Source of the DNA: Gammaproteobacteria bacterium
Lineage (GTDB): Bacteria > Pseudomonadota > Gammaproteobacteria > Ga0077536
NCBI GenBank assembly: GCA_019747795.1
Contig: JAIEQK010000096.1
Coordinates: 1 to 33,801, forward strand
Direction of reading: 5' to 3'
DNA length: 33,801 bases
Numbering within the stretch: position 1 is the first letter of the stretch; each line of letters starts with the position of its first letter. The notes under the pieces were generated by a model. The model did no database searches. It was not told the origin of the DNA and worked only from the letters and a program-made list of their open reading frames with translations. The translations under genes were made by a program, and so were the position numbers. Below are positions 4,339 to 19,061 of the stretch, piece by piece.

Positions 4339-4428
4339 GATTCTTCCTCCCCAGGAATGCGCCGGCGGAGCGCCGTCCAGCGACGTCGGCAGTGTACACG
4401 CCCGTCCGCGACGCGCCCACGGCGACGC

Positions 4429-4455
4429 TTCAGCTTCGCGTGACGCGGCCGCTAA
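4429..4455 (+). promoter_or_regulatory. Weak sigma-28-like promoter ahead of the hybrid kinase
   Basis: GCCGCTAA at 4448-4455 is the same octamer found before cheY and before the DUF1631 gene. The -35 side is poor: TTCAG at 4429-4433 with 14 bp between. If real, transcription would begin near 4463. That favours the TTG start at 4512 over the upstream GTG at 4392. Confidence 0.3.
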
Positions 4456-4511
4456 CCCGCCTGCAGTCGCGCCCGCGCCCCCTGTTCATCCGCGCCGCGC
4501 AGGAGTTGCGC

Positions 4512-7289
<2,778 letters not shown>

Positions 7290-7406: not shown

Positions 7407-7769
7407 ATGCCAAACATACTCGCGGTCGACGATTCGGCCTCCATGCGCCAGATGGTGGCGTTTACCCTCAAGGGCGCCGGCTACGGCGTGATCGAGGCGG
7501 TGGACGGCAAGGACGCGCTCGAGAAGGCCAAGACCGGCGCCGCCGATGTCGTGCTGACCGACGTCAACATGCCGAACATGGACGGCATCGAACTCATCCG
7601 CCAGCTGCGCGCGCTGCCCAAGTACAAGTTCACGCCCATGCTGCTCCTGACCACCGAGTCCGGCGCGGACAAGAAGGCGGCGGGCAAAGCGGCGGGCGCG
7701 ACCGGCTGGCTGGTCAAGCCCTTCAACCCCGACCAGCTGCTCGCCACCATCGCCAAGGTCCTCGGCTGA
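7407..7769 (+). CDS. cheY: Chemotaxis response regulator CheY
   Basis: A stand-alone receiver domain of 120 residues, the usual CheY size. The acid pocket is Asp8/Asp9, the phospho-acceptor is Asp52 (VLTDVNMPNMDG), the switch Thr is at 82-83 and the conserved Lys is Lys104 (LVKPFN). It should be phosphorylated by the CheA encoded next and act as the diffusible output. CheY-type LTTESGADKKAAGKAAGATGW follows beta-4. A clear AGGAG lies 7 nt before the ATG. It is the first gene of the che set and follows a sigma-28-like promoter. Whether the target is a flagellar motor or something else cannot be told here, because no flagellar gene is in the window. Confidence 0.95.
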   Translation: MPNILAVDDSASMRQMVAFTLKGAGYGVIEAVDGKDALEKAKTGAADVVLTDVNMPNMDGIELIRQLRALPKYKFTPMLLLTTESGADKKAAGKAAGATGWLVKPFNPDQLLATIAKVLG

Positions 7770-7806: not shown

Positions 7807-9870
7807 ATGTCGATAGACGTCGCTCAGTTTCACCAGGTGTTCTTCGAGGAATCCTTCGAGGGACTGGAAGTGATGGAGTCAGGCCTGGTCGGCCTGGAAG
7901 TCGGCCGCCCGGACATCGAGGCGATCAACGCGATCTTTCGCGCCGCGCATTCGATCAAGGGCGGCGGCGGCACCTTTGGCTTCACCGCCATCAGCGATTT
8001 CACCCATGTGCTCGAGACCTTGCTGGACGAAATGCGCAGCGGCGCGCGCGAAGTGACCCGCGAGGCGGTGGACGTGCTGCTGCTCGCGGTCGACAGCCTG
8101 CGCTCCATGCTCGACGCGGCGCGCAGCGGCACGGCCTTCGACGCGCAGGCCGTGGCCGAGGTGCACCACAAGCTCGAAGAGCAGCTGCATCACGGCGCCA
8201 CCGCGGCGCCGGTACCCGGTGCCGCGTCGGACAGCGCCGCAGCGGCGCCAGCGAGCGAGGCGCCCGCGGCCGGGCGCTGGGTGATCGGCTTCACGCCGGA
8301 ACTGCATCTCTTCACCACCGGCAACGATCCGGTGCGCCTGCTGCGCGAACTCGATCGCCTGGGCAGCATGCAGGCCGAGATCGACTTCGAGCGGCTGCCG
8401 GACTTCGCGCAGTTCGATCCCGAGACCTGCTACGCGGCGTGGCGCATCACGCTCGACGGCAGTGTCGAGGAAGCCGCCATCCGCGAAGTGTTCGAGTGGG
8501 TGGAGGACGATGCGCGCATCACCCTCACCCGCGAAGAGCCGCCGGTCAGCGCCAGCGCCGCGGCACCGAGCCTCGTGCCGCCGGTCGCAGAGCGCCGCGA
8601 AGGCGAGCGCCGGCAGGCCGACAGGCGCCAGGGTGACAGGCGCGAAGCCGAGGGCGGTGGCGCGACCGCGTCCTCGATCCGCGTCGACATCAGCAAGGTC
8701 GATTCGCTCATCAACCTGGTCGGCGAACTGGTGATCACCCAGTCCATGCTCGGCCAGTTCGACGACGACAGCCAGCCGATCAATTTCGCCAAGCTGCGCG
8801 AAGGCCTGGCCCAGCTCGAACGCAACACGCGCGAGCTGCAGGAAAGCGTGATGCGCATTCGCATGCTGCCCATCAGCTTCTCCTTCAACCGCTTTCCGCG
8901 CCTGGTGCGCGACCTGTGCGGCAAGCTCGGCAAGCAGGTCGACCTGCGCATCGTGGGCGAGCAGACCGAGCTCGACAAGACCGTGCTGGAGAAGATCGGC
9001 GACCCGCTCGTGCACCTGGTGCGCAACGCGCTCGACCACGGCATCGAGAAGCCCGAGGTGCGCGAGGCCGCCGGCAAGCCGCCCCAGGGCACCCTGTCGC
9101 TCGCCGCGCGTCACGAGGGCGGCAACATCGTCATCGAAATAGGCGACGACGGCGCAGGCATCAACACCGAGGTGCTGCTCGCCAAGGCGCGCGAGCGCGG
9201 CATCGTCGGCCCGGACGAGACGCCGAGCGAGGAAGCGATCCGCGACCTGATCTTCCACCCCGGTTTCTCGACCGCCAAGGAACTCTCGGACGTGTCCGGC
9301 CGCGGCGTCGGTATGGACGTGGTGCGCCGAAACATCAACGAGTTGGGCGGCGCCATCGAGCTCGAATCGACGGTCGGCGTGGGCACCACCATCCGCATCC
9401 GCCTGCCGCTGACGCTCGCCATCCTGGACGGCCAGCTGGTGCGGGTGGGTGACCAGACCTACATCGTGCCGCTGGTCTCCATCGTCGAATCGTTGCAGGC
9501 GACGCCCGATCGCGTGAAGTCCGTCACCGGCAGCGCCGAGCTGTACCGTCTGCGCGGCGAATACCTCCCGGTCATCCGCCTCTACGAGCTGTTCGGCATT
9601 CCGCCACAGACCACCGCGCTCGAGCAGGGCCTCTTGGTGGTCGTCGAGGGAGAAGGCCGCCGCGCCAGCATCTTCGTCGACGAACTTCTCGGTCAGCAGC
9701 AGGTGGTGATCAAGAGTCTCGAGACCAACTATCGCAAGGTCGACGGGATCTCGGGCGCCACCATTCTCGGCGACGGCACCGTCGCCATGATCATCGACGC
9801 CGGCGGGGTCATCGCGCTGGCACGCAAACACCAGGCCCACCGGGTCGACGAACACCCCCAGGCCGCCTAG
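7807..9870 (+). CDS. cheA: Chemotaxis histidine kinase CheA
   Basis: The 687-residue protein has the standard CheA order. P1/Hpt carries His48 in RAAHSIKGGGGTFG. A compact domain at about 158-243 (GRWVIGFTPELHLF to WVEDDARITL) sits in the P2 place. The P3 dimerisation region begins near DISKVDSLINLVGELVITQS. The P4 ATPase has LVRNALDHGIE, IGDDGAGI and GRGVGMDVV. The P5 CheW-like domain begins ILDGQLVRVGDQTYIVPL. Between P2 and P3 lies an unusual Arg-rich linker (about 260-280) with repeated ERRQAD/RRQGDRR units. It autophosphorylates in receptor arrays and passes phosphate to CheY and CheB. It begins 37 bp after cheY and ends 9 bp before cheW, so these are one operon. Confidence 0.96.
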   Translation: MSIDVAQFHQVFFEESFEGLEVMESGLVGLEVGRPDIEAINAIFRAAHSIKGGGGTFGFTAISDFTHVLETLLDEMRSGAREVTREAVDVLLLAVDSLRSMLDAARSGTAFDAQAVAEVHHKLEEQLHHGATAAPVPGAASDSAAAAPASEAPAAGRWVIGFTPELHLFTTGNDPVRLLRELDRLGSMQAEIDFERLPDFAQFDPETCYAAWRITLDGSVEEAAIREVFEWVEDDARITLTREEPPVSASAAAPSLVPPVAERREGERRQADRRQGDRREAEGGGATASSIRVDISKVDSLINLVGELVITQSMLGQFDDDSQPINFAKLREGLAQLERNTRELQESVMRIRMLPISFSFNRFPRLVRDLCGKLGKQVDLRIVGEQTELDKTVLEKIGDPLVHLVRNALDHGIEKPEVREAAGKPPQGTLSLAARHEGGNIVIEIGDDGAGINTEVLLAKARERGIVGPDETPSEEAIRDLIFHPGFSTAKELSDVSGRGVGMDVVRRNINELGGAIELESTVGVGTTIRIRLPLTLAILDGQLVRVGDQTYIVPLVSIVESLQATPDRVKSVTGSAELYRLRGEYLPVIRLYELFGIPPQTTALEQGLLVVVEGEGRRASIFVDELLGQQQVVIKSLETNYRKVDGISGATILGDGTVAMIIDAGGVIALARKHQAHRVDEHPQAA

Positions 9871-9879
9871 GAGAACTCG

Positions 9880-10404
9880 ATGGAAGGCAGCACCAACACA
9901 CACAAACAGGGCGTGGAGCTCGGTCTCGGCAGCGCCGGGGCCAACGCCGCCCAGTACCTGACCTTCATGCTGGACGGCGAGGAGTATGGCGTGGACATCC
10001 TGCGCGTGCAGGAAATCAAGGGCTGGATCCCGACCACCCGCATTCCCAACACGCCAGAGTACATCCGTGGCGTGATGAACCTGCGCGGCGCCATCGTGCC
10101 GATCATCGATCTCCGTCAGCGCTTCGCGATGCCGGCCGTGGAGTACACCGCCACCACAGTGGTGATCGTGCTGAAAGTGCTGAAGGACGGCGCCGAACGC
10201 ACGGTCGGATTCGTGGTGGATGCAGTTTCCGACGTCTACAACGTCGCCCCAGAGCAGTGCCGTGACGCCCCCGACTTCGGCGCACATGTACACACCGACT
10301 TCATCCGGGCCCTCGCCACGGTCGAGGAGAAGATGGTGATCCTGCTCGACATAGACAGCCTGATGAGCGTCGACGATCTCGAACCGCCAGCGGGCCTCCA
10401 CTGA
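9880..10404 (+). CDS. cheW: Chemotaxis coupling protein CheW
   Basis: A single CheW domain of 174 residues with core motifs YLTFMLDGEEYGVDILRVQE, the Arg-containing loop IRGVMNLRGAIVPIIDLR and VGFVVDAVSDV. It couples chemoreceptor tips to CheA P5 inside the array. The first 25 residues are a polar extension (MEGSTNTHKQGVELG) before the conserved fold. AGGAGA lies 6 nt ahead of the ATG, just after the cheA stop. It is the only free-standing CheW in the window. Confidence 0.95.
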   Translation: MEGSTNTHKQGVELGLGSAGANAAQYLTFMLDGEEYGVDILRVQEIKGWIPTTRIPNTPEYIRGVMNLRGAIVPIIDLRQRFAMPAVEYTATTVVIVLKVLKDGAERTVGFVVDAVSDVYNVAPEQCRDAPDFGAHVHTDFIRALATVEEKMVILLDIDSLMSVDDLEPPAGLH

Positions 10405-10488: not shown

Positions 10489-12708
10489 ATGTTCAGGCGT
10501 AAACAATCCATCCAGGCCGCTGCGAGCGTCCCGGAGAACTCCGACACCCTTCGACTTCGCAACGAACACGCTGCGCTCATGACGGGCCACGCCGTGGCCC
10601 TGTGCGGCAGCGACGGCCGCATCGAGAGCGCGAGCGACGCGTTCGCGGCGCTGACCGGCCGCAGCGCGGTTGAACTCCACGGGCACAGCATCGCTGCGCT
10701 GTGCACCCCGGCCAGCGATCCCGCGTGGCGTTCTGCCTGGGAGGCCCTGCGCCAGGGACGGACGCTCGGCGGTGACTTCCAGATCGCCGCCGCCGATGGC
10801 AAGCGCTGGCTGCGTGTCTCGGCCACACCGGTCCCGGCAACGGCGAACGAGCCGGCGCGGGTTCTGTGCCTGGCGGTGGACGTCACGTCCCTGCGCGAGG
10901 AGCTGGAGGATACGCGCGTCGAACTCAAGGTCCGCCAGGACATCATGAACGTGACGAGCATCGTGTCGGAGGCCGACAAGAAGGGCGACATCCTGTCCTG
11001 CAACGACAAGTTCATCGAGGTCTCGAAGTACTCGCGCGACGAGTTGATCGGGCACGGACACAACACGACGCGCCACCCGGACATGCCCAAGTCCGTCTTC
11101 AAGGACATGTGGAACACCATCGGGCACGGCAAGATCTTCCGCGGCGTGGTCAAGAACCGCGCCAAGGACGGCACACCCTATTACGTCGACGCGGTCATCG
11201 CGCCAATCCTCGGCGAGAACGGCAAGCCGAAGAAGTACCTCGGCGTGCGCTACGACATCACCGAGGCGGAGATAGAACGCCACAACGCGCGCGGCGTGCT
11301 GGGCGCGGTGAACGAGAGTTTCGGCTACATCGAGTTCGATCTCAGCGGCAATGTGTTGTCCGCCAATCCGGTCTTTCTGGGCGTAGTCGGTTACCGGGCC
11401 GAGGAGGTCGTCGGCCGCCATCACCGCATGTTCGTCGACGCGAGCCTGGCCAACTCCGAGGAGTATCGCCGCTTCTGGCAGGACCTGGCTGAAGGCAAGC
11501 CGCAGTCAGGCGTCTTCAAGCGTGTCGGCAAGGACGGCGGCGAGATCTACATCCAGGCGACCTATGCGCCGGTCAAGGACGAGATGGGCCGAGTGTTCAA
11601 GGTGGTGAAGATCGCCACCGACATCACGGCGCAAAAGCGCTACGAGCTGTCGGTCGCGGAGCTCTTGCGCGCCACCAGCGCGGTGATGAGCGAAGTGCAG
11701 CGCGGCAACCTGACCATGACACTGGACGGCGAGTACGAAGGTGAATTCGCGGTCCTGCAGCGGGCGGTGAACGGCACCATCGAGCAACTCCGCGACGTGG
11801 TGGGCCGCATCCGTACCGGCGCGCTCAACATCAACAGTGCCGCGAGCGAGGTTGCCAAGGGCAACACCGAACTCTCGACGCGCACCGAAGAACAGGCGTC
11901 TTCGCTCGAGGAGACCGCGGCCAGCATGGAGGAGATGACCTCCACCGTGCAACAGAATGCCGAGAACTCCCGCCAGGCCAACGAGTTGGCCGCGTCCGCG
12001 CGCGACCAGGCCGCGGAAGGCGGTGAGGTGGTCGGGCGCGCGGTGGACGCGATGTCCGCGATCAACCAGTCCAGCCGCAAGATTGCCGACATCATCGGCG
12101 TCATCGATGAGATTGCCTTCCAGACCAACCTGCTGGCGCTGAATGCCGCGGTGGAAGCGGCTCGCGCGGGCGAGCAAGGCCGCGGCTTCGCGGTGGTGGC
12201 GAGCGAGGTTCGCAACCTGGCGCAGCGCTCCGCCTCCGCCGCCAAGGAGATCAAGGCGCTGATCAACGACTCGGTAGGCAAGGTCGCGGAAGGCTCGCGG
12301 CTGGTGGACGAGTCCGGCCGGACCCTGACCACCATCGTCGCGGCGGTGCGGAAAGTGTCGGACATCATCGCCGACATCGCGGTCGCGTCGGAGGAACAGT
12401 CTTCAGGCATCTCCCAGGTCAACACCGCCGTCACGCAGATGGACCAGATGACCCAGCAGAACGCAGCGCTCGTCGAGCAGGCGGCGGCGGCGGCGGAGTC
12501 CATGGATGAGGAGTCGCGCGGCCTGATAGAGCTCGTGCAGTTCTTCGACCTCGGCGGCGACAACGGCGCTGCGCGCGTCGAACGCCGCAGCGCGGATCGG
12601 CCCTGGACCGGCAAGAGTGCGCCCTCGGTCAGGGTCGCGAGTGGCGCAGCACCTATGAAGTCGGCACGCGCGGCGGCAGCAGGCGGTGACGTATGGGAAG
12701 AGTTCTGA
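10489..12708 (+). CDS. Soluble PAS-PAS-PAS-HAMP-type chemoreceptor with CheR-tether tail
   Basis: A 739-residue methyl-accepting protein with no membrane helix or signal peptide. Three PAS-like domains come first: about 25-135, 150-265 (Aer-like [14 protein letters not shown] and [15 protein letters not shown]) and 270-390 (ends IATDITAQ). A HAMP-like segment follows ([17 protein letters not shown]), then the signalling hairpin with tip [20 protein letters not shown] and methylatable Glu/Gln helices ([17 protein letters not shown]). The last five residues are VWEEF, matching the xWxxF tether that recruits CheR/CheB in enteric high-abundance receptors. It probably senses a cytoplasmic or redox signal; the Aer-like PAS suggests a flavin or other cofactor, which is not proven. 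An A-rich leader with AGGAAAA precedes the ATG. Confidence 0.93.
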
Positions 12709-12727
12709 TCCTTGGAGGACGCGTGTC

Positions 12728-13027
12728 ATGACCACCGAAACCTGCGCCGGGGCGGCGCTTCTCACCTTGCCTTCCAGCCTGCGCATCGCGGATGTCTCCG
12801 AGTTTCGCGCGCTGTGTGAGCCGCTCCTGGCGGGCGACGGTCCGCTGACCGTCGAGGCGGGCGAAGTCGAATACATCGACGCCGCCGGGCTGCAGTTGCT
12901 GGTGGCGCTGTCGCGCGTCTGCGCTGCCCAGGGCCGCGCCTTCGCGCTCGGCGCTCCGTCCGCCGCGCTCGGCAGCGCGGCACGAATCGCGGGCTTTGCC
13001 CCATTGCTGGGGCTGGCCGCGAGCTGA
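12728..13027 (+). CDS. STAS-domain protein lacking the phospho-Ser, chemosensory cluster
   Basis: A 99-residue single STAS domain (anti-anti-sigma fold). The loop that carries the phosphorylated Ser in SpoIIAA reads EYIDAAGLQLLVAL here, with Ala52 directly after Asp51, so Ser/Thr phosphorylation at the classic site is not possible. The ATG at 12728 has GGAGG 9 nt upstream and is a better start than the in-frame position 12686, which overlaps the receptor gene. STAS genes of this kind occur inside some gammaproteobacterial che clusters between receptor and cheR. Their partner is not well established. It could be a passive scaffold or a constitutively unphosphorylated binder of the GHKL-like domain encoded at 17313-19061. 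Confidence 0.85.
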   Translation: MTTETCAGAALLTLPSSLRIADVSEFRALCEPLLAGDGPLTVEAGEVEYIDAAGLQLLVALSRVCAAQGRAFALGAPSAALGSAARIAGFAPLLGLAAS

Positions 13028-13056: not shown

Positions 13057-13101
13057 ATGCATATCCCGTCGACGTCCGTCCGCCCGGTGCAGCGCCCATG
13101 A
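13057..13101 (+). CDS. Possible 14-codon leader peptide coupled to cheR
   Basis: An ATG at 13057, with GAGGA 11 nt upstream, opens a 14-residue frame (MHIPSTSVRPVQRP) whose TGA at 13099 overlaps the cheR ATG at 13098 in an ATGA. A second in-frame ATG is at 13048. The cheR ATG itself has no convincing Shine-Dalgarno, so re-initiation from this frame could supply ribosomes. This is a positional argument only; chance is quite possible. Confidence 0.25.
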   Translation: MHIPSTSVRPVQRP

Positions 13102-13973
13102 GCGCCCAGCCCCTGGCCGTCGCTGCGCCGCCCGTCGAGGCGGCGCAGGAGTACCCGTTCACCGACAAGCATTTCGAACTGCTGCGCGGACTGGTCGCGC
13201 GGCACGCTGGCATCAGCCTGAACGACACCAAGCGTCAGCTGGTCTATGGCCGCCTCGCGCGCCGCATCCGCGCGCTGGGTCTCAGCGGCTTCGATGCCTA
13301 CTGCGACCTGGTGAAGGACGAGAACAGCGCGGAGATCGAGAACTTCATCAACGCCATCACCACCAACCTGACGGCGTTCTTTCGCGAGAATCATCATTTC
13401 GAGTGCCTGGCCCAGGAGGTGGTGCCGGCCCTGCTGCAGAGCAATGCCGCCAGCCGCCGCATTCGCGTGTGGTCGGCGGGCTGCTCCACGGGCGAGGAGC
13501 CCTACAGCATCGCCATGACGCTCCTCGAAGCGCTCGGCAACCGCAACGGCTGGGACGTGAAGATCCTGGCCACCGACATCGATTCCAACGTGGTCGCCAC
13601 CGCCGCGGCCGGCGTGTACGCGGCCAACCGCCAGCAGGGCGTGGGCGATGCGCGGCTGAAGCGCTGGTTCACACCGGCGGGCGGCGCGTCCGGCGCGCTG
13701 CGCGTCAAGGACGAGGTACGCGAGCTGATCCGCTTCGCGCCGCTCAACCTGATGGGCGCATGGCCCTTCAAGGGGCCGTTCGACGTCATCTTCTGTCGCA
13801 ACGTCGTCATCTACTTCGACAAGCCCACCCAGGGTCGGCTGTTCGGTCGCTATGCCGACGTGCTCGCGCCCCATGGTCACCTGTTCATCGGTCACTCCGA
13901 GACCATGTTCGGCACCTGCGATCGGTTCGAGCTGATCGGCCGCACCATCTACCGCCTGGCGGGACGTCCATGA
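13098..13973 (+). CDS. cheR: Chemotaxis protein methyltransferase CheR
   Basis: The 291-residue protein has the all-helical CheR N-domain (YPFTDKHFELLRGLVARHAG, then LVYGRLARRIRALGL) and a SAM-binding C-domain with VWSAGCSTGEEPYSIAM, LATDID, and the late motifs FDVIFCRNVVIYF and GHSETM. It methylates receptor glutamates using S-adenosylmethionine. TNLTAFFRENHHFE is the usual linker motif. The size matches ordinary CheR with no extra domain. The ATG at 13098 is the first ATG of this frame and overlaps the stop of a short upstream frame. The end overlaps the cheD start (ATGA at 13970). The VWEEF tail on the receptor encoded upstream is a likely docking site for it. Confidence 0.95.
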   Translation: MSAQPLAVAAPPVEAAQEYPFTDKHFELLRGLVARHAGISLNDTKRQLVYGRLARRIRALGLSGFDAYCDLVKDENSAEIENFINAITTNLTAFFRENHHFECLAQEVVPALLQSNAASRRIRVWSAGCSTGEEPYSIAMTLLEALGNRNGWDVKILATDIDSNVVATAAAGVYAANRQQGVGDARLKRWFTPAGGASGALRVKDEVRELIRFAPLNLMGAWPFKGPFDVIFCRNVVIYFDKPTQGRLFGRYADVLAPHGHLFIGHSETMFGTCDRFELIGRTIYRLAGRP

Positions 13974-14631: not shown

Positions 14632-15690
14632 ATGGACATGCGAGTGAAACCTGTACGCGTGCTGGTGGTCGACGATTCGGCGCTGGTGCGCAAGCTGCTG
14701 TGCGAGATGCTCGCGGCCGATCCCGGCATCGAAGTGCTGGGTGCGGCCAACGATCCGCTCATGGCGCGCGACATGATCAAGCAGCTCAATCCCGACGTCC
14801 TCACCCTGGACGTCGAGATGCCGCGCATGGACGGCGTGACCTTCCTGACCAATCTCATGCGGCTGCGACCCATGCCGGTGGTGATGGTGTCGTCGCTCAC
14901 CGAGAAGGGCGCCAACGTCACCCTGCAGGCGCTCGAGATCGGCGCGGTCGATTTCGTCACCAAGCCGAAGGTCGACCTAGCGCACCACTTCGAGGACTAC
15001 GCCGTCGAGATCGTCGCCAAGGTCAAGGCCGCCGCCCGCGCGCGGGTGCGGACCTATGACCCGACGACCGCCACCATCAGCCGCGTGCCGACCGCAAACA
15101 CCGCCGCGCGCCTCGATCTGACCCACAAACTCGTTGCCATCGGCGCCTCCACCGGTGGCACCGAGGCGATTCGCGTGGTGCTGGAGAAAATGGCCCACGA
15201 CAGTCCCGCGGTGGTCATCACACAGCACATTCCCGAGGCCTTCAGCGGCCCGTTCGCGGCGCGCATGGACCGCTCGAGCCCGATGAAGGTGTTCCACGCG
15301 GAGGACGGTCAGCCCATCCTTCAGGGACACGTGTACATCGCGCCCGGGCACCGGCATCTCACCGTCGAACGCAGCGGCGCGCGCTTTCGCTGCAAGCTGC
15401 ACGACACCGCGCCGGTCAATCGCCATCGGCCGTCGGTGGACGTGCTGTTCGACTCCGTGGCGCAGAACCTCGGCGCCAACGCGGTCGGCGTGCTGCTGAC
15501 CGGGATGGGCGCGGACGGCGCGCGCGGCCTTCTGAACATGCGCCAGGCCGGCGCGCACACCATCTGCCAGGACGAGCAGACGAGCGTCGTGTGGGGCATG
15601 CCGGGCGAGGCGGTCAAGCTCGGCGCGGCCGATCACGTCGTCCCCATCGACAAGGTCGCGGAATTGGCCACGCGCCTGGTGCAGAGCTAA
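14632..15690 (+). CDS. cheB: Chemotaxis methylesterase/deamidase CheB
   Basis: A receiver domain (acid pocket Asp14/Asp15, phospho-acceptor Asp60 in [12 protein letters not shown]) joined to a C-terminal methylesterase domain. The catalytic triad is Ser173 ([10 protein letters not shown]), His199 (ITQHIPE) and Asp295 ([11 protein letters not shown]); the intervals of 26 and 96 residues equal those of E. coli CheB (164/190/286). It removes receptor methyl groups when phosphorylated by CheA. At 352 residues it is the normal size. GAGAGCGAG precedes the ATG. The gene is followed within 14 bp by the receptor-like gene at 15705. Confidence 0.96.
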
Positions 15691-15704: not shown

Positions 15705-16931
15705 GTGACCGATGTACGGTTATTCCATTCACGCAGTCGAGAGCGACGCGACATGCCCCAGTTCCTCCCCTTGCTGCCAGGCGCGGTCACCGTCGCCGCG
15801 GTGCTCGTCACCCTCGTCGTCGCGCAGCCCTGGATGGCGGTCGCCGCCATCGTGCTGGTGTCCCTGGCCTGGGCCTGGGAAGCGCGCCGCGTTGCCGCCC
15901 AGCTCGCGCAGCATGCCGCCGCCCCGGTGGTCGAGGAGGCCTTCGAGCCGCACGAGGTCGAGCGCATCGAGCTGCTGCACGGCTGCGCCACGCACACCAT
16001 CCGTCAGTTACAGGTCGACTTCACGCAGATTCGTGAGCTGATTCGCGACGCCGTCGCCGAGCTGTCCCAGGCCTTCGACGGCTTCCACGCCAACGCCCAG
16101 ACACAGAAGTCGCTGATGGACGAGGCGGTGCGCACGCTCGCCAACGGCGCCCCCGGCGCCGCGCAATCGTCCGATGGCGAGCAGGTCACCATCGGCAAGT
16201 TCGTGCGCGACACGTCCAGCGTGCTGCAGGGTTTCGTCGACAATTCCATCGTCGCGAGCAAGCGCGGCATGGACATCGTCAACATGATCGACACCATGAA
16301 CACCCAGATGACCGAGATCTTCGAACTGCTGGGTGACGTGAAGGGCATCGCCGACCAGACCAACCTGCTGGCGCTGAACGCCGCCATCGAGGCCGCCCGC
16401 GCCGGCGAGGCCGGACGGGGCTTCGCGGTGGTCGCCGACGAAGTGCGCAAGCTCTCGCTGAACTCCGCGCACTTCAACGAGCAGATTCGCTCCCACGTGG
16501 AGAACGCCCAGGCGACCATGCAGTCGACGCGCAAGCTCGTCGGCGACTCGGCGTCGATGGACACGACCATGCTGCTCACCCACAAGTCGAGCATCGACGG
16601 CATGATGCGTCACCTGTCCTCGCTCGAAGATTCACTGAACAGCCTGATCACCGAGACCGCCGGCGTGACCGAGCAGATCTCGGCCCGCACCGGCGCCGCA
16701 GTGCGCGCGCTGCAGTTCGAAGACATCGTGCGCCAGGTGGCGGAGCATGGCGAGAAGGAGCTCGGCCGGCTGGACACGCTGGTCGAGACCGGCGTGGTGC
16801 GCTGGTCGCGGGGTTCGCTGGAGGAGAGTCTCGCCGAGCTGCGCGCGGCTTCACAGGCGCTCCGCGAGATGCAACCGCGCAAGCCCGCCCACCAGGCGAG
16901 CATGGGCGAGGGCGACATCGAACTTTTCTGA
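15705..16931 (+). CDS. Membrane MCP-like protein with CheZ-like DxxxQ motif
   Basis: About 408 residues. Two adjacent membrane helices near the N-terminus ([17 protein letters not shown] and [15 protein letters not shown]) leave no periplasmic sensor domain and there is no HAMP. A long coiled region follows, with a receptor-like tip ([32 protein letters not shown]), then a helix with [15 protein letters not shown]. In CheZ the catalytic pair is Asp143 and Gln147 in DFQDLTGQ; here Asp340 and Gln344 stand in the same D-x3-Q frame with the Phe before it. The tail GEGDIELF recalls the acidic-hydrophobic CheY-binding tail of CheZ. The family call (MCP signalling domain) is firm; phosphatase activity is inference. 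I chose GTG 15705, with AAGGAAGG 8 nt upstream; the ATG at 15753 has no good ribosome site. It directly follows cheB. Confidence 0.85.
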
Positions 16932-16986: not shown

Positions 16987-17292
16987 ATGAGCATCAGCAC
17001 CCAGACCTCCACCGACGGCGCCACCCTCACCATCCGCGTGCAGGATCGCTTCGACTTCAACGTGCACCGCGAGCTGCGCCAGGCCTACGAGGCCCACGGC
17101 AAGCGCTACGGCAATTACGTGATGGATCTCCGCGGCACCACCTACATGGACAGCGCGGCGCTCGGCATGCTGCTGCAGCTGCGGGAACACGCCGGCGGCC
17201 AGCGCCAGGCGGTGCGCCTGGTGAACGCCCAGCCGGTGATCCGTGACATTCTCGCGGTGGCCAACTTCGATCAGCTCTTCACCATCGAGTAA
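16987..17292 (+). CDS. STAS-domain anti-sigma factor antagonist, HsbA/CrsA-like
   Basis: A 101-residue single STAS domain. The phosphorylation loop reads TTYMDSAALGMLLQLREHAG, with Ser56 directly after Asp55 as in SpoIIAA, so it can be phosphorylated in principle. It is followed 20 bp later by a REC-PP2C-GHKL-type protein. This pair is the HsbA/HsbR (Pseudomonas) or CrsA/CrsR (Shewanella) arrangement, in which the STAS protein binds an anti-sigma factor such as FlgM, or a diguanylate cyclase, depending on its phosphorylation. GGAG lies about 5 nt before the ATG. It starts 55 bp after the receptor-like gene and likely belongs to the same operon. Confidence 0.9.
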   Translation: MSISTQTSTDGATLTIRVQDRFDFNVHRELRQAYEAHGKRYGNYVMDLRGTTYMDSAALGMLLQLREHAGGQRQAVRLVNAQPVIRDILAVANFDQLFTIE

Positions 17293-17312: not shown

Positions 17313-19061
17313 ATGCCGATTTCCGCCTGCAACGTCGACGACGAACCGGCCGTCCTCACGCGCCGCTTCAACGCTCTGCATGCGCTGGTAATCGAGGACA
17401 ACGAGGTCGACCGCTACCTCGTGCAGCGCATGCTGATGGACCTCGGCTTCACGGTCGAAGTCACCAGCACGGTCGCCGACGCCCTCGCCCTGATGCTCGA
17501 ACAGCGCCCGGACGTGGTGTGCTGCGACATCGGGCTGCCCGGTGTCGATGGCTACGTGCTCGCCCGAGCGGTGCGTGAACGCTTTCCCGATGCGCACATC
17601 CCTGTGATCTTCATCACCGGACTCTCGGACGAGGACGCGCTCCTGCGCTGTTTCGCCGCCGGCGGTGACGACGTCATGGTGAAGCCGCTCAACCCGGCGC
17701 GGCTCAAGGCCAAGCTGGTCGCGGCGCTGCGCACGCGCGAGCTGAACGACACCTTGCTCGCCCAGCGCGACCAGCTGGCCCGCTACCAGGCGGACACCCA
17801 GCGCGACATGGCGATCGCCAAGACCATCATCGACAACCTGGGCTGCGAGCGCACGCTGGACCTGCCCAACGTCTCCTACCATCTCGCGCCGATGGACACC
17901 TTGAACGGTGACATCATCATCGGCGGGCGCAGTCCGCGCGGCGCGCAGTACTTCCTGTTCGGCGACTTCACCGGCCACGGACTGCCGGCCGCCATCGGCG
18001 TGCAGGTGGTGTACGGCGTGTTCCGCGCCATGGTCGCCCGCGGCCACGCGCTCGAGCAGATGGCCCAGGAACTCAACCGCAAGGTGCGCGAAACCTTGCC
18101 GCGTGATCGCTTCCTGTCGGCGGCGCTGATCGAGATCTACCCGGACAGCGGCACGGTATCGGTGTGGAACGGTGGCATGCCCGAGATCCTGCTGCGCAAC
18201 GCCGCCGGCAGCCTGCGCAAGGGTTTTCGCTCCACCTACCTGCCGCTCGGCGTACTGCCGCCGGAGGAATTCGACGCGCGACCGGTGCGGCGCCAGCTGC
18301 GCGAGAACGACACGCTGTTCTGCTATTCCGACGGCGTGATCGAGGCGCTCGACGCAGGCGGCACGATGTTCGGCCAGGCGCGGGTGAAGCTGTGCGTCAC
18401 CGGCGGCACGCACGACAGCGTGGCGGCCGTCCGGACCGCGCTCGAGACGCATGTCGGCAACGTGCCGCAGCAGGACGACATCTCCATGCTCGAGGTGCGC
18501 TTTCGCCACGACGCGCTGTATGCCCTGCCCGGGGCCGGCGCGGCGCTGATGCCCGCGCGGCCCGCGACCCACTGGCGCGTGGCGCTCGATTTCGCCGCGG
18601 ACGCGCTGCGCAACGCCGACCCGTTGCCGGCGCTGGGTGCCGTGCTGGACGCGGTACAGGGCTTCGGGCCAGGCAGCACGGAAATCTACATGGTGACCTC
18701 GACCCTGTTCGGTCACGTGCTGGAACAGGGCCTGCTCCAGCTGGAGAGCGGCCTGAAGAGCGACAGCCATGATTACGCTTTCTACTACCTCGAGCGCGAG
18801 CGGCGCCTGGCGGAACTGGTCGACGCGCAGGTGCACCTGGAACTTGCCCATCGTCCTGACGACGAGGGGGGCGAACTCGAGATCTGCGTGAGCGGCCAGA
18901 GCGCCCACTGCCGCACGCAGCAGCCGCAGGCGCTCGCGGCCACCGACCTGGCCTTGCTCGCGAAGCTTTGCGCCAGCTACGAGGTGAGCGAGACCTGCTG
19001 CCGCGCTTCGGCGCGCTATCGATGGCGACGCGGCGAACCCGCGGTCCGCCCGCCAGGCTGA
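17313..19061 (+). CDS. Response regulator REC-PP2C (SpoIIE) phosphatase with degenerate GHKL domain, HsbR/CrsR-like
   Basis: The 582-residue protein has REC (23-135; Asp29, phospho-acceptor Asp72, Thr102, Lys124), a coiled linker (140-170), a PP2C/SpoIIE phosphatase (185-395; Asp200 in NGDIII, Asp218 in GDFTGHGLPAA, Asp340 in YSDGVIEA, Asp388/389 in QDDISML) and a C-terminal domain (420-572). The PP2C metal sites look intact, so it should dephosphorylate a STAS partner, most likely the protein encoded just upstream. The C-terminal domain lines up with the anti-sigma Ser kinase of HsbR/CrsR, but the N-box ELFxNALxHG is TLFGHVLEQG (463-473), the G1 box is replaced by SGQSAH and no GxGxxL G2 remains. 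It is probably kinase-dead. It is the last gene of the island and ends 25 bp from a convergent gene. Confidence 0.88.
   Translation: MPISACNVDDEPAVLTRRFNALHALVIEDNEVDRYLVQRMLMDLGFTVEVTSTVADALALMLEQRPDVVCCDIGLPGVDGYVLARAVRERFPDAHIPVIFITGLSDEDALLRCFAAGGDDVMVKPLNPARLKAKLVAALRTRELNDTLLAQRDQLARYQADTQRDMAIAKTIIDNLGCERTLDLPNVSYHLAPMDTLNGDIIIGGRSPRGAQYFLFGDFTGHGLPAAIGVQVVYGVFRAMVARGHALEQMAQELNRKVRETLPRDRFLSAALIEIYPDSGTVSVWNGGMPEILLRNAAGSLRKGFRSTYLPLGVLPPEEFDARPVRRQLRENDTLFCYSDGVIEALDAGGTMFGQARVKLCVTGGTHDSVAAVRTALETHVGNVPQQDDISMLEVRFRHDALYALPGAGAALMPARPATHWRVALDFAADALRNADPLPALGAVLDAVQGFGPGSTEIYMVTSTLFGHVLEQGLLQLESGLKSDSHDYAFYYLERERRLAELVDAQVHLELAHRPDDEGGELEICVSGQSAHCRTQQPQALAATDLALLAKLCASYEVSETCCRASARYRWRRGEPAVRPPG

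Follow-up and report, generated by a model that had tools for sequence, protein, structure and literature searches.

An HsbR/CrsR-type regulator with an eroded, putatively kinase-dead GHKL domain in a gammaproteobacterial chemosensory operon

Among the closest described counterparts of the regulator analyzed here is CrsR of Shewanella oneidensis, which is encoded together with CrsA in the che1 locus, where a REC-PP2C-GHKL protein stands beside a single-domain STAS protein in an operon of CheY, CheA, CheW, CheR, CheD, CheB and chemoreceptors (PMC9855816). The third domain of CrsR and HsbR forms homodimers and combines two activities, as a STAS kinase and as an RpoS-binding anti-sigma domain (PMC6482189). 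In Pseudomonas aeruginosa, HsbR presents the same domain order and phosphorylates its STAS partner, HsbA, while the HsbR REC domain is unphosphorylated (PMC5085249).

Two further systems distribute these activities differently. In the SigF system of Mycobacterium smegmatis, the anti-sigma factor RsbW1, an RsbW-family protein devoid of kinase activity, binds the sigma factor, and phosphorylation of the STAS antagonist falls to a separate homologue, the kinase RsbW2 (PMC7693655). Both proteins are stand-alone, whereas the dead domain described below shares one polypeptide with a receiver and the antagonistic phosphatase. In Vibrio fischeri, the regulator SypE, which acts on the STAS protein SypA, also unites an RsbW-like kinase with a PP2C phosphatase; unlike in the protein presented here, the kinase lies at the N terminus, and its essential Asn52 is retained (PMC3610818).

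The window, by which we mean the whole analyzed stretch of 33,801 nucleotides, carries an operon with the order CheY, CheA, CheW, chemoreceptor, STAS1, CheR, CheD, CheB, MCP-like protein, STAS and regulator, preceded by a hybrid kinase; the CheD call comes from the list of open reading frames only. The genes are given below, G001 and G002 denoting two further species of the same genus.

4392..7289 (+), hybrid histidine kinase by sequence (HisKA/HATPase motifs, receiver-like stretches); open reading frame, syntenic in G001 and G002
7407..7769 (+), CheY; open reading frame, with a 92% identical CheY at the same place in G001 and G002
7807..9870 (+), CheA; Pfam, N box LVRNALDHG intact by eye
9880..10404 (+), CheW; Pfam
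10489..12708 (+), PAS-HAMP chemoreceptor; Pfam
12725..13027 (+), second STAS protein (STAS1), IDAAGLQLL with Ala at the phospho-Ser position; Pfam STAS_2, 5e-15
13095..13973 (+), CheR; Pfam
14632..15690 (+), CheB; Pfam
15753..16931 (+), MCP-like signalling protein; Pfam MCPsignal, 4e-28, same order in the genus
16987..17292 (+), HsbA/CrsA-like STAS partner, 101 aa, phospho-Ser motif YMDSAALGML; Pfam STAS_2, 1e-13, about 20 bp upstream of the regulator
17313..19061 (+), HsbR/CrsR-type regulator, REC-PP2C-(eroded)GHKL, 582 aa plus stop; open reading frame at the coordinates of the sequence-only reading

CheY, CheA, CheW, an MCP, CheR, CheB, a STAS protein and the regulator thus lie in one operon, as in a CrsR/che1-type locus, and the STAS protein adjoining the regulator is a single-domain antagonist with a phospho-Ser (DSAALG), whose counterpart in HsbA is the phosphosite Ser56 (PMC5085249). 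The second, non-phosphorylatable STAS gene sets the operon apart from the CrsR-CrsA locus, and this Ala-bearing protein could serve as a constant partner for a GHKL domain. Counterparts of the STAS protein with the IDAA motif are found in the che loci of G001, G002 and two other genomes, G015 and G005. A search for related loci with the window returned just two matches, both at the level of the REC domain.

Within the regulator, the three domains occur in the order REC-PP2C-GHKL, with the following coordinates.

17379..17738 (+), REC domain, residues 23-142; Pfam PF00072, 1e-21, E28/D29, D72, T102 and K124 intact
17883..18506 (+), PP2C/SpoIIE domain, residues 191-398; Pfam PF07228, 8e-38, D200, D218, D340 and D388/D389 intact by alignment
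18564..19028 (+), C-terminal homologue of the GHKL fold (the kinase/anti-sigma 'D3' of CrsR/HsbR), residues 418-572; 100 bits, all ATP boxes lost
18702..18731 (+), N-box position, residues 464-473, TLFGHVLEQG for ELxxNALxHG (E464T, N468H, H472Q); alignment
18891..18908 (+), G1-box position, residues 527-532, SGQSAH for xDxGxG (D528G, G530S, G532H); alignment
18939..18947 (+), G2-box position, ATD for GRG; alignment

A sequence-only reading of this gene had proposed an HsbR/CrsR-like protein with intact REC and PP2C catalytic residues and an eroded Ser-kinase domain. Its account of the first two domains is borne out by Pfam, with matches well over cut-off at residues 25-135 (REC) and 211-397 (SpoIIE/PP2C), and by alignment, while the HsbR/CrsR-like architecture holds through a different route for the third domain, which was recognized only by a family HMM. 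This HMM was built from 54 intact relatives, the window regulator being excluded, and the last ~155 residues match it end to end at 100 bits, ruling out a non-homologous C-terminal domain. No HATPase Pfam match was obtained for the regulator, also when its C-terminal 193 aa were scanned alone. The domain matches neither the profile of PF13581 (HATPase_c_2, RsbW/SpoIIAB type), for which the window protein and its two genus mates give no match up to E = 1, nor the N, G1 and G2 motifs; four relatives do match PF13581, three above the cut-off and one at 24.8 of 27.4 bits. We also rejected the possibility that a frameshift or an assembly error had produced the pattern: the other two frames contain stops, the frame continues to the conserved C-terminal YRW motif, and the same loss is present in the two further species. 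A single-sequence structure model of the domain reached a pLDDT of 40 and was not used for a fold search; the domain profile, searched against the PDB, retrieved just one weak match, SenB (9qih, E = 0.07).

The strings TLFGHVLEQG and SGQSAH that had been read by eye are exact and fall at the N-box and G1 positions of the aligned domain. At the former, E464 and N468 are present in 54/54 intact relatives; together with D528, G530, G532 and G545 they are invariant in that set, and the window reads T, H, G, S, H and D at these six positions. The reported absence of GxGxxL also stands, there being no GxG where the relatives carry G543-R-G545 (alignment) or later in the domain (motif search). Displaced ATP ligands were sought by motif search and rejected: residues 455-500 contain no Asn, and neither DxGxG nor a later GxG occurs anywhere in the GHKL domain.

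This loss is not spread evenly. The alignment of N, G1 and G2 boxes that had been suggested as a check shows that the window keeps 0/8 ATP-box residues (E, N and H of the N box; D, G and G of G1; two G of G2) and 18/25 of the other positions that are conserved in 85% or more of the intact relatives, including W421, G473, L475, L477, K482, C553, Y569 and W571 of the scaffold. The three genus members together keep 1/24 and 56/75. Fisher tests, uncorrected for kinship, give p = 0.0005 for the window and 4e-10 for the trio, whose members are not independent of one another. The loss of ATP-box residues is therefore selective, beyond chance. The evidence argues strongly that kinase activity is absent from this domain: a GHKL domain without its ATP-site residues should neither bind ATP nor phosphorylate the STAS protein. 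The earlier proposal that the regulator alone would be unable to rephosphorylate its partner is upheld on the same grounds, and the protein would differ in this from HsbR, which phosphorylates HsbA, as well as from CrsR, whose kinase and anti-sigma domain has its counterpart here in a domain without ATP boxes. By architecture, partner and locus the regulator is best placed in the HsbR/CrsR group; as it lacks the defining kinase boxes, we file it as a putative kinase-dead variant.

Sequence comparison extends the earlier reading in that the loss is genus-wide, apparently nested in a clade with a G1 Asp-to-His change, and recurrent elsewhere. The regulator gene, the locus order and the ATP-box loss are common to the three genus genomes compared (window, G001 and G002), with REC and PP2C residues intact in each, which rules out a one-off loss in the window species. 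We then drew on a family sample of 100 C-terminal domains, 71 with full-length proteins; eroded members were part of the profile used to collect it, and the sample is hence not random. By our reading of the tables, the N-box Glu and Asn and the G1 Asp are kept in 81 of these 100 domains, and in 11 the only change is G1 Asp to His; erosion is complete in six (window, G001, G002, G015:C281, G095 and G295:C11) and partial in two (G015:C30 and G070:C76).

Trees were built from the REC and PP2C domains only, leaving out the GHKL domain. The 17 then-known proteins without the G1 Asp share one side of a branch with a support of 91/92, which is suggestive rather than firm, and the genus loss appears on this basis to be nested inside a clade in which the change of G1 Asp to His came first. 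G295:C11 groups apart from these, with G070:C76 (support 100/100), G095 and G295:C11 are separated, each keeping REC, PP2C and an adjacent STAS gene, and the tree requires at least three changes for the degenerate copies and at least four for the fully eroded ones. At least two other lineages have thus undergone a similar GHKL collapse on their own, and there too REC, PP2C and the neighboring STAS gene are retained.

The N box adds a further observation. G095 reads VTELYSRALEQGLL, and G001 and G002 read ALFARALEQGLL and ALFSRALEQGLL, respectively, from which it follows that the N-to-R and H-to-Q changes arose separately, with RALEQGLL common to both. Transfer of the eroded domain from the genus into G095 was ruled out, the G095 GHKL domain being nearest that of its own sister, G213 (44% versus 30-33% to the genus). 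The matching changes are a hint of a selected pseudokinase state rather than random decay.

Several individual relatives deserve mention. The G1 Asp is His (HTGEGF, HNGAGF, HDGDGF) in same-family relatives and in G213, with N and G2 boxes intact across deep divergence (L007-L010, L052, L053, L173-L178, L168). The second copy in G015, C30 (L048), keeps the N and G2 boxes and has lost G1, its receiver is apparently degraded (VADDID at the phospho-Asp site), and no STAS gene was found beside it; the other G015 copy, C281, has a STAS gene and an intact receiver and has lost the N box. An intact-type paralogue in G001, C224 (L044), meets the contig end with apparently misjoined sequence, leaving its GHKL domain unreadable.

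The pattern of selection on the eroded domain bears on whether it still has a function. Between G001 and G002 the GHKL domain is 72% identical with dN/dS about 0.17, and between the window and these two it is 43-46% identical (7% expected by chance) with dN/dS about 0.5 (0.45-0.54), compared with about 0.1-0.2 for PP2C, all of these ratios being rough since synonymous sites are near saturation. Selection on the domain is purifying but relaxed. Plain decay, in which the GHKL domain is functionless and on its way out, the protein is now merely a REC-gated PP2C phosphatase and STAS or sigma binding is done elsewhere, would fit the fact that no other part of the protein has changed as fast in the window lineage, with PP2C at 73-77% identity to the genus mates (77% against 43% for GHKL in the comparison with G001), and would fit the loss of 7/25 conserved positions outside the ATP site. 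We had considered this acceleration as proof of decay and dropped it, because the intact paralogue pair (C276 of the window genome and C10 of G002) equally has a fast GHKL domain, 57% identical versus 83% for PP2C. Decay also has to contend with reading frames free of stops and frameshifts in three species, with the constraint seen between G001 and G002, and with a loss concentrated in the ATP boxes rather than spread, and we consider it an unlikely account, albeit the best placed of the alternatives. Part of the constraint could come from protein stability alone.

The STAS partner is 91-92% identical within the genus, and its phospho-Ser is kept there and in 59/59 adjacent STAS proteins aligned, while the residue that follows, usually Ser, is Ala in the genus, in G015:C281 and in two others. 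That substitution, together with the death of the sole dedicated kinase domain, would suit a one-way switch, in which the STAS protein has no kinase left and stays unphosphorylated, PP2C is idle or acts elsewhere, and the access of RpoS or the STAS protein to the GHKL domain is controlled by REC phosphorylation alone. We regard this arrangement as improbable: without phosphate turnover, it is difficult to see why the phospho-Ser and every catalytic Asp of PP2C should be so strictly retained, and the window genome encodes further GHKL kinases. Less probable still is a GHKL domain that remains a kinase through another nucleotide pocket or other metal ligands, for although the G1 Asp-to-His relatives, with near-perfect N and G2 boxes, indicate that the Asp can go while the remaining site stays under selection, the window domain has no Asn, DxGxG or GxG that could be displaced, and the equivalent Asn is required for SypE function (PMC3610818).

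The STAS protein with its Ser and the phosphatase are strongly conserved although the kinase half appears dead, so phosphate most likely reaches the STAS protein from elsewhere, probably from a kinase encoded by another gene, as the sequence-only reading had suggested. The search for another GHKL Ser kinase in the genome, also proposed earlier, yielded three candidates: on contig C276, a REC-PP2C-GHKL paralogue whose boxes are all intact, which lacks an adjacent STAS gene and has a divergent, Hpt-containing hybrid kinase as its neighbor; on C173, a REC-GHKL protein of 301 aa; and on C265, a GAF-PP2C-GHKL protein that has a STAS protein of its own close by. The candidate on C276 is tied to this STAS protein solely through the absence of an adjacent STAS gene, and our confidence in a trans-acting kinase and in its identity is moderate to weak. 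Degenerate copies lie mostly in genomes with a second copy (3/4 genomes versus 4/74; Fisher p = 0.002 in the class sample, kinship uncorrected). G095 has a single HsbR-like copy; the candidate donor there, a REC-GHKL protein 41% identical to that on C173, is encoded some 10 kb from the regulator gene. REC-GHKL kinases of about 300 aa without PP2C are found at G000:C173 (L061), in the window genome, and at L231 13924-14844, their architecture resembling that of SenB (PDB 9qih); HATPase_c_2 frames of similar size are present in G001, G002, G015 and G213.

The reading we favor, with moderate confidence, is that the regulator is a REC-gated phosphatase, that its GHKL pseudokinase has been retained to bind STAS and/or sigma, and that the phosphate is provided in trans. 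The regulator would be the output of a CheA-type (F7/Che1-like) chemosensory operon. Its REC domain, with its intact residues, would be phosphorylated by CheA, the input suggested by operon position, and/or by the neighboring hybrid kinase, a possible additional phosphodonor. REC phosphorylation would switch on PP2C, leading to dephosphorylation of the adjacent STAS protein at its conserved Ser, as the catalytic residues and the likeness to HsbR/CrsR suggest. The GHKL domain, which at the sequence level has lost its Mg ligand (Asn), its catalytic Glu, the Asp that binds adenine and the glycine loops, may be kept as a nucleotide-free docking or anti-sigma module for STAS and perhaps for RpoS, which the window genome encodes; purifying selection on the rest of the domain lends this role moderate support. 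The sequence-only reading had suggested a STAS-binding pseudokinase, which is plausible as just one of the possible retained roles, because the same domain of CrsR/HsbR is also an RpoS-binding anti-sigma domain (PMC6482189). The STAS protein would then be rephosphorylated in trans, with the C276 paralogue as first candidate and the C173 REC-GHKL kinase as second, and kinase and phosphatase would thereby respond to different sensors.

Splitting of the kinase and anti-sigma roles is already known from M. smegmatis, and none of the papers we found describes a repeated split inside a receiver-phosphatase fusion. A broader generalization, possible if rather doubtful, is that a kinase-free HsbR/CrsR switch evolved several times, with the G1 Asp lost first, the GHKL domain becoming a receiver-gated docking trap fused to a phosphatase, and an orphan paralogue with another sensor acting as the trans kinase, such that two sensory systems meet on one STAS protein. 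In the textbook partner switch, a single protein both phosphorylates and dephosphorylates its partner. The apparent removal of the kinase half on several occasions, with phosphatase, receiver and STAS protein kept, would provide natural separation-of-function versions of CrsR/HsbR, and the lineage with the G1 Asp change alone may represent an intermediate step. These eroded variants allow one to ask whether sigma or STAS binding by the third domain needs ATP, and whether trans-acting paralogues wire partner switches together.
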